64,000 nt of DNA from Synechococcus sp. RCC307. Its GTDB lineage: Bacteria > Cyanobacteriota > Cyanobacteriia > PCC-6307 > Cyanobiaceae. Numbering within the stretch: the first letter of the stretch is position 1; each line of letters starts with the position of its first letter. The position numbers and the translations under genes were made by a program. The stretch is from NCBI GenBank assembly GCA_000063525.1, contig CT978603.1, forward strand, positions 1,235,105-1,299,104, in the 5' to 3' direction. Positions 5,380 to 7,398 of the stretch are shown here, piece by piece. The notes under the pieces are model-generated. The model was not told where the DNA came from, made no database searches, and was given only the letters and a program-made list of their open reading frames with translations.

Positions 5380-5868
5380 ATGGTCTCAACCGAGCTCTCT
5401 CTTCCGGCCCAACTCGAGGCGATCCTCTACCTCAAGGGGCGCTGCCTGAGCCTGGCGGAATTGAGCGAGCTCGCCGGTTGTGAGCGCGATGAGGTGGAGC
5501 TAGCGCTGATCACCTTGATGGCGGACTACGCCCACCGCGATACGGCGCTGGAAATCCGCCAGGAAAGCGCTGGTTACAGCCTGCAATTGCGCCAAAACCT
5601 GGCGGCCTTAGTGCAAGAACTGGTTCCTGTGGACCTCAGCACCGCCAGCCTGCGGACCCTGGCCACGGTGGCGCTGAAAAAAAGGATCCTGCAATCGGAG
5701 CTGGTGGACCTTCGCGGCAGTGGGGCCTACGACCACATCAAAGAGCTGCTCCAGCACGGCTTCATCGAACGCAAACGCCAGAGCGAAGGGCGTTCGTTTT
5801 GGATCAGCCTCACCGAAAAATTTCATCGCACCTTTGCCTTAAACAACGTCAGCGCCGAAGCGGCGTAG
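5380..5868 (+). CDS. scpB: SMC-ScpAB complex subunit ScpB
   Basis: The 162-residue product is a winged-helix ScpB, which with ScpA and SMC forms the bacterial condensin that organises and segregates chromosomes. The N-terminal part (QLEAILYLKGRCLSLAEL) and the second winged helix with RGSGAYDHIKELLQHGFIERK are characteristic. The highly conserved TxxFLxxFGL-type end is present as a variant (TEKFHRTFALNNV). It is shorter than many ScpB proteins, as is usual in cyanobacteria. It starts 27 bases after ilvA and is probably cotranscribed with it. Confidence 0.85.
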   Translation: MVSTELSLPAQLEAILYLKGRCLSLAELSELAGCERDEVELALITLMADYAHRDTALEIRQESAGYSLQLRQNLAALVQELVPVDLSTASLRTLATVALKKRILQSELVDLRGSGAYDHIKELLQHGFIERKRQSEGRSFWISLTEKFHRTFALNNVSAEAA

Positions 5869-6088: not shown

Positions 6089-7021
6089 ATGGACAACTCC
6101 CTGTCACCCAAGATGGACTTTGGTGGGATCACCAAAACAGAGGGCGTTACTTACAACAACTCCAATGGGGCTAGCAGTGTTGCCGCCCTCACCACTGCCG
6201 ATTTCCTGAGGGATTCCTGCGCTCAAATGAAGCTGGGTGTTGGCGCCCGTGATCACCAGGCATGCCCGCACAGGGTGACTTTTGACTATTACTCACCCTC
6301 CGATAGCGCAACGTTGCAGGAGGCCATACATGCCGCCTACCGGCATCTTCATGGCAACTGCTATGTCATGGACAACGAGCGCGCCGCTGAGCTGGAATCC
6401 CAGCTCAGCCATGGCTCACTGAGCATTCGCGAATTCGTGCGGGCCTTGGTGAAGCGTGACTTCTACAAAGATCGTTTTTTCTCGGTGGTGTCACCACATC
6501 GGGGAATTGAACTGACCTTCAAACACCTGTTGGGCCGCCCGCCGCTGCATCAGCAAGAAATCTCCGCTGCGATTGCAACACAAGCCGCCCATGGCTTCGA
6601 CGCCTTGGTTGACAGCCTGATGGATTCCGCCGAATACAGCGAAGTCTTCGGTGCAGACACCGTTCCCTATTCCAGGGCCTGGACCTCAGCGAGCGGTATG
6701 CCAATGATCAACTTTGTTCGCATGGCAGCGCTGGAGCAAAACTTTGTGACCAGCGATCGCAACAACGGATCGGCCTCAATCCTGCTTGGCAACCTCACCA
6801 AAGGCACTCCTTTGCCTATCAAGGTGAGCAAGAAGGTCAATTTCGTTGGCGTGTCGGCCGCTTGGGGTGCTGGCAAGCCCCCAGCCAATTACGAAAAGCT
6901 CTGGCGTGGTCTGGCCCTGGTCGGTGGCGCTCACCTGGCCGGAATGCTCGTCAATGTGCTCTCACAAATGGCCGGAATTCATGCCCTTGATCGCATTCCA
7001 GCGATGTTCCTGGGTCTTTGA
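6089..7021 (+). CDS. Phycobilisome linker-domain protein with C-terminal membrane segment (CpcL-like)
   Basis: The 310-residue protein has a unique polar N-terminus (about 1-75), a phycobilisome linker domain (pfam00427 type, about 80-205), a polar region (205-265) and a C-terminal hydrophobic helix (about 273-300). The linker domain is recognisable from AAYRHLHGNCYV, LSHGSLSIREFVRALVKRDFY, LTFKHLLGRPP and DSAEYSEVFGADTVPY. In other cyanobacteria CpcL (CpcG2) has this layout and ties a rod-only phycobilisome to photosystem I or NDH-1. The N-terminus does not look like classical CpcG, so the assignment to CpcL is inference from architecture. A hairpin terminator follows directly. Confidence 0.8.
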   Translation: MDNSLSPKMDFGGITKTEGVTYNNSNGASSVAALTTADFLRDSCAQMKLGVGARDHQACPHRVTFDYYSPSDSATLQEAIHAAYRHLHGNCYVMDNERAAELESQLSHGSLSIREFVRALVKRDFYKDRFFSVVSPHRGIELTFKHLLGRPPLHQQEISAAIATQAAHGFDALVDSLMDSAEYSEVFGADTVPYSRAWTSASGMPMINFVRMAALEQNFVTSDRNNGSASILLGNLTKGTPLPIKVSKKVNFVGVSAAWGAGKPPANYEKLWRGLALVGGAHLAGMLVNVLSQMAGIHALDRIPAMFLGL

Positions 7022-7107: not shown

Positions 7108-7398
7108 ATGGATCTCAGCTTCCTACTCGGTGTTCTGGCTCAAACCTTGAGCATCTACACGGTCGTGCTGATCGTTCGTGTCCTGCTGAGCTGGTTTCCC
7201 AACCTCGACTGGGGCAACCCCGTGCTGAGCGCCGTCAGCTCGATCACCGATCCCTATCTGAATGTCTTCCGAGGTTTGATCCCTCCCCTTGGCGGTCTGG
7301 ATCTATCGGCGATCATTGCCTTTATCGCCTTAAACCTGCTGCAGTCACTCCTCTCAAGCGCTAGCGCATCGTTTTATAGCGGTGGCTTCGGTTACTGA
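7108..7398 (+). CDS. YggT/Ycf19 family membrane protein
   Basis: The 96-residue product has the YggT pattern: an N-terminal helix, the conserved RVLLSWFPNLDWGNPVLSAV loop, SITDPYLNVFRGLIPPLGGLD, and a C-terminal helix. YggT/Ycf19 proteins are small inner or thylakoid membrane proteins, linked in plants to c-type cytochrome maturation or thylakoid organisation and in bacteria to osmotic shock. Function here is not demonstrated. It has its own start after the upstream terminator, so it should have its own promoter. Confidence 0.9.
   Translation: MDLSFLLGVLAQTLSIYTVVLIVRVLLSWFPNLDWGNPVLSAVSSITDPYLNVFRGLIPPLGGLDLSAIIAFIALNLLQSLLSSASASFYSGGFGY

Follow-up and report, generated by a model that had tools for sequence, protein, structure and literature searches.

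The window analyzed in this work is a stretch of 64,000 nucleotides (C1:1235105-1299104) of the complete genome of Synechococcus sp. RCC307 (G000; 2,224,914 bases). Its ORF at 6089-7021 (Table 1) is mpeG, a name given by Six et al. 2007 to an additional gene of RCC307 for a linker of phycoerythrin-II (PEII) that lies outside the phycobilisome region and encodes a relative of the N-terminal part of MpeD (PMC2246261). The gene and its nature as a PEII linker are therefore already published. Twelve PF00427 domains were found in the genome, in agreement with the published list of RCC307 linkers; among them, this gene is the only one encoding a PEII linker outside the phycobilisome region, and its nearest paralogue is domain 1 of MpeD (53% identity over residues 9-250). 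It is located about 400 kb away from the other rod-linker genes, and the earlier note had described it as far from any phycobiliprotein genes in the window. The gene order ilvA-scpB-mpeG-yggT is conserved in L043, L044, L046 and L047, i.e., in those loci of relatives that extend that far. MpeG orthologues are full length and share 57-93% identity; the chromatically acclimating strain RS9916 is also reported to carry mpeG. Since the orthologues retain the start codon and both ends of the protein and strong purifying selection acts on the C-terminal tail (dN/dS of about 0.01-0.09 where estimable), neither the ORF nor its tail is a chance product.

Table 1. Features of the mpeG locus (positions in the window) and genes encoding the tail alone in other genomes (positions in the respective loci).
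Feature	Position	Strand	Description and evidence
mpeG CDS	6089..7021	+	310 aa, ATG start; PEII-type linker with CpcL-type membrane tail; ORF, full-length orthologues
N-terminal extension, PEII-linker type	6089..6298	+	residues 1-70; homologous to MpeD/MpeC/MpeE/MpeF N-termini; M1 conserved
Cys44 codon, first Cys of presumed phycourobilin-binding pair	6218..6220	+	invariant; spacing as in MpeD
Cys59 codon, second Cys of presumed phycourobilin-binding pair	6263..6265	+	invariant; spacing as in MpeD
PF00427 phycobilisome linker domain	6302..6676	+	residues 72-196; Pfam E 3.7e-43; with PEII linkers in trees
CpcL-type tail	6851..7018	+	residues 255-310; SAxW..GKPPA motif, hydrophobic helix, conserved LDRIPAMFLGL end; HMM, hhalign, shuffle control, dN/dS
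Predicted membrane-spanning helix	6899..6973	+	about residues 271-295; hydropathy maximum at residue 274
scpB, upstream neighbour	5380..5868	+	PF04079 E 6.7e-37
YGGT-family membrane protein gene, downstream neighbour	7108..7398	+	PF02325 E 5.9e-22; synteny
Stand-alone tail genes	L051:7968-8165; L127:7590-7763; L129:7695-7874; L128:7817-8032; L137:9836-10015; among others

The earlier note had described a linker domain followed by a C-terminal hydrophobic helix, and both parts were recovered here: PF00427, which is the single domain found in MpeG by Pfam (with no CpcD domain after it), and a C-terminal segment that contains the best hydrophobic 19-residue window of the protein (KD 1.57 at residue 274). 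It had also recognized in this layout the architecture of CpcL (CpcG2), the rod linker associated with photosystem I. This comparison holds for the succession of a PF00427 domain and a C-terminal membrane helix and for the tail, which is homologous to CpcL tails, but not for the linker domain. A tree built with 126 PF00427 domains places CpcG and CpcL in a separate clade (support 100/98) that excludes MpeG, so that the candidate membership of MpeG in CpcL was rejected. Clustering within the rod-core CpcG linkers, which the earlier note had named as evidence against its proposal, was thus not observed; MpeG does not cluster with CpcL either. Its linker domain belongs instead to the clade of the PEII linkers, together with domain 1 of MpeD, MpeC/E, MpeF and the PpeC-type linkers of Prochlorococcus. 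When the N-terminal extension is included, MpeG forms a group by itself (92/88) beside the MpeF, MpeD and MpeC/E groups. NCBIfam CpcG models give MpeG 86-93 bits, for cut-offs of 420-440. As judged by phylogeny, the linker half of MpeG is a PEII linker, because its PF00427 domain groups with those of PEII linkers.

The N-terminus leads to the same family. It had been called unusual and unlike those of CpcG/CpcL. The lack of resemblance to CpcG/CpcL over the first 75 residues was confirmed, but this stretch has its counterparts at the N-termini of MpeD, MpeC, MpeE and MpeF, with which the first 70 residues align along the pattern ALTN.EFL..SC..M..GVGPR.H..CPHRVT. According to this alignment, the N-terminus of MpeG is the usual extension of PEII linkers and not an odd one. 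All of the eight MpeG sequences compared have both Cys44 and Cys59, whose 15-residue spacing is identical to that of C42 and C57 in the MpeD of RCC307. In the MpeD of strain WH8102, region 43-59 contains two cysteines that bind a phycourobilin (PMC2246261). The cysteine pair typical of PEII linkers is therefore present in MpeG at the sequence level, and phycourobilin binding by Cys44/Cys59 is predicted. A Pfam match of residues 35-96 to RE_ApaLI, under the cut-off, was judged to be due to chance. MpeG thus shares its N-terminal extension, its cysteine pair and its PF00427 clade with MpeC, MpeE and the N-terminal half of MpeD, which differ from it by the absence of any membrane tail (MpeD has another linker domain and a CpcD domain in its place). 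The PpeC-like single linker of Prochlorococcus-type genomes belongs to the same superclade of PEII linkers as MpeG but has no tail and, in the sequences seen, only one of the two cysteines.

The C-terminal tail of MpeG (residues 255-310, VSAAWGAGKPPANYEKLWRGLALVGGAHLAGMLVNVLSQMAGIHALDRIPAMFLGL) is of another type. An HMM built from 12 CpcL tails, MpeG being excluded, matched all 12 MpeG tails (E 9e-11 to 3e-7). Among 5426 ORFs, it also found all MpeF tails and all the small proteins consisting of a tail alone (stand-alone tails), and its matches with E <0.1 were exclusively tail-type linkers, CpcL-type proteins and stand-alone tails. Furthermore, hhalign aligned the MpeG and CpcL tails over 43 columns with 97% probability and 47% identity. 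As a control, 60 column-shuffled tail HMMs, in which the hydrophobic core was shuffled separately, gave a best E of 0.24. These profile comparisons indicate true homology between the MpeG tail and the membrane tail of CpcL; the former is about 12 residues longer than the latter, from which it also differs by its end (Table 1). In several comparisons, the tail is the most conserved segment of MpeG.

The KD maximum of MpeG is close to that of the CpcL-type protein of RCC307 (1.55), the tail-less PEII linkers ranging from 0.70 to 1.15; this peak is nevertheless modest, and the tail includes glycines and one histidine. The basic residues K263, K270 and R273, on the linker side of the helix, would suit a cytoplasmic linker domain. 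The AlphaFold model of MpeG, too poor to be relied on (mean pLDDT 40), contains a helix at residues 266-294. A profile search of the PDB, CpcL chains included, did not retrieve any solved chain matching the tail. Therefore, the MpeG tail is linked to the best-studied CpcL tails only indirectly, via CpcL-type proteins of picocyanobacteria and other cyanobacteria, and a kinship with a solved photosystem subunit was discarded. Two other candidates were dropped: (i) Pfam DUF1097, whose match (E 0.014) is under the cut-off and was attributed to chance, and (ii) the high-light-inducible proteins, suggested by an E-x6-A-x2-G spacing but devoid of Pfam support. Among the viral contigs searched, no phage copy of the tail was found.

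Two other types of tailed linkers are to be considered together with MpeG. The phycobilisome region of RCC307 (C1 ~1765 kb) encodes a separate CpcG-type protein of 257 aa (L141:10052-10825) that ends with a CpcL-type tail, SAVWAGGQPPAWALKLWLGLFATGGFELVRFVLTIAAEMLKTAQG, and whose gene, according to its position, is presumably the cpcGII of Six et al. 2007. In that study, neither CpcGII, in the strains tested, nor MpeG of RCC307, searched for by mass spectrometry, was detected in soluble phycobilisomes (PMC2246261). A membrane anchor would explain the absence of both proteins from such preparations. MpeF, encoded by other chromatic acclimaters (L052-L057), has the same architecture as MpeG, a PEII linker with a CpcL-type tail, and its tail is nearest to the CpcL-type tails of cyanobacteria other than picocyanobacteria (hhalign, 99% probability, 43% identity). 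A joint clade of MpeG and MpeF is not rejected (p-AU 0.476), which is compatible with one or two acquisitions of the tail.

Among the 201 genomes of the family that were searched, full-length MpeG was found in six genomes of the genus of RCC307 and in four of a related genus, g5, and tailed MpeF-type proteins in six further genomes. The PEII alpha subunit MpeA (at least 83% identity) is encoded by 24 of the 201 genomes, one of them with a partial gene. It is present in every MpeG/MpeF genome apart from three incomplete MAGs with MpeG that contain no PEII contigs and are uninformative. Within this sample of 201 genomes, tailed PEII linkers are thus restricted to PEII-containing genomes. The type-IV chromatic-acclimation (CA4) regulators fciA/fciB, carried by RCC307 at C1:1738.8-1740.8 kb, were found in the 13 MpeG/MpeF genomes of the same sample other than the three incomplete MAGs, and in no other genome of it. 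A strict coupling of tailed linkers to CA4, perfect in these 201 genomes, was abandoned after extension to the full genus g5: four CA4-B-type genomes (G431, G434, G435 and G439) carry fciAB without any tailed linker, and G418 carries a tailed linker without fciAB. In high-quality genomes, a tailed PEII linker is present in 14 of the 18 genomes with fciAB compared to one of the 11 without (Fisher p 5e-4, uncorrected for shared ancestry and, for the added g5 genomes, counted regardless of PEII). The link with chromatic adapters was already reported by Six et al. 2007 for a smaller number of strains (PMC2246261). Here, it also covers fciA types with about 55% identity that lie in the phycobilisome region and are probably CA4-B (PMC3877281).

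In published models, the PEII of marine Synechococcus is located at the far ends of the rods of core-containing phycobilisomes. MpeG is a chimera of a PEII linker and a CpcL-type tail, and we propose that it tethers a PEII disc or short rod to the thylakoid outside these phycobilisomes, a reading to which we give a probability of about 0.7. The domain make-up, tail homology, conservation, phylogeny and restriction to PEII genomes were established directly; from there, we infer the membrane insertion of MpeG, its chromophore binding and PEII as its partner. The N-terminal extension and PF00427 (a gamma-type subunit) would occupy the cavity of the PEII hexamer, with one phycourobilin probably carried on Cys44/Cys59. 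The tail would comprise a proline-containing hinge (GKPPA), one helix spanning the thylakoid and a short conserved lumenal end. MpeG could then hold PEII on the thylakoid without a core, as CpcL does for phycocyanin rods, its presumed partner being PEII and not phycocyanin. CpcL couples phycocyanin rods to photosystem I, and its membrane part is unresolved in the Synechocystis structure (PMC10322944). By analogy, the docking target of MpeG is perhaps photosystem I, or it may be a neighbouring complex. We only tentatively extend this to a second, core-less and membrane-anchored PEII antenna, the counterpart of the CpcL-phycobilisome, that would feed photosystem I with blue light in chromatically acclimating marine Synechococcus and whose docking site would be shared or regulated by the stand-alone tails.

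PEII emits near 565-570 nm, which is distant from the chlorophyll Qy band, so that a photosystem would receive energy directly from PEII with poor efficiency, unless other discs lay in between. For this reason, a PEII pool that is bound to the membrane but not coupled energetically, and which would act as an assembly platform for bilin lyases during chromatic acclimation or as a store or light screen, is a serious rival, although we consider it rather improbable. It is a sub-case of membrane anchoring and overlaps with the anchored disc proposed above, which leaves the downstream target open. Besides the poor spectral overlap, the frequency of tailed linkers in fciAB genomes speaks for such a pool, but this association is neither strict nor corrected for shared ancestry, and the tail is common to CpcL, known for its coupling to photosystem I (PMC10322944).

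Two other explanations were considered. MpeG could be a common rod linker that, in certain conditions, takes the place of MpeC/MpeE or supplements them in the PEII rods of standard phycobilisomes, its tail serving for protein-protein contacts rather than for insertion into the membrane. Such a conditional use, proposed by Six et al. 2007 (PMC2246261), agrees with the type of its linker domain and N-terminus. However, the homology of the tail with CpcL tails, which distinguishes it from the C-termini of MpeC, MpeE and MpeD, its strong conservation and the absence of MpeG from phycobilisomes analyzed by mass spectrometry make this explanation unlikely. Even less probable, to the point of being almost discounted, is the possibility that mpeG is itself a CpcL gene (CpcG2-type) whose N-terminus has diverged: the layout is alike and the tail is homologous, but the phylogeny and NCBIfam scores place MpeG outside CpcG/CpcL and RCC307 already possesses a CpcL-type gene.

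The account of MpeG and MpeF in the available part of Six et al. 2007 (PMC2246261) differs from the present one by the absence of the membrane tail, of the kinship with CpcL and of the stand-alone tails. None of these three points is mentioned in the literature searched, outside of which lie most subscription journals, and an earlier mention is possible. Our analysis suggests that the phycoerythrin of some ocean Synechococcus is docked straight on the photosynthetic membrane. If so, abundant phytoplankton of the ocean could also attach their blue-light antenna to the membrane itself, chromatic acclimation would be tied to a relocation of the antenna beyond the change of chromophore, and this would bear on how photosystem I gets light in marine Synechococcus.

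The stand-alone tails are single-helix proteins of 57-60 aa that belong to no Pfam family and whose identity with the MpeG tail reaches 89%. They were found in 12 genomes of the 201-genome sample and in about 19 of 34 genomes of genus g5, the RCC307 genome being devoid of such a gene. Such a gene is present in about half of the Synechococcus genomes with PEII that were examined. The MpeG tail may derive from these proteins, or they may be partial copies of it. In G070 (L126:7271-8045) and G185 (L137:9461-10015), the neighbour of the stand-alone tail gene is homologous to unk10, which belongs to the CA4 island and encodes a Nif11 domain. Two Prochlorococcus-type genomes (L138:7478-7756 and L139:7432-7665) encode, in a conserved neighbourhood, proteins of 77-92 aa that show weak similarity (E about 1e-5) and the motif LWRxxxLxGAxHLxxxxxxLxAQMxGxxxxDxxxxxFLGL. 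Finally, in the single cell AG-673-B04 (L048:6800-7117), mpeG is close to a small gene that, in G112 and G161 (L128:8118-8471), is found next to the stand-alone tail gene, an arrangement that hints that mpeG arose or landed near a stand-alone-tail locus.
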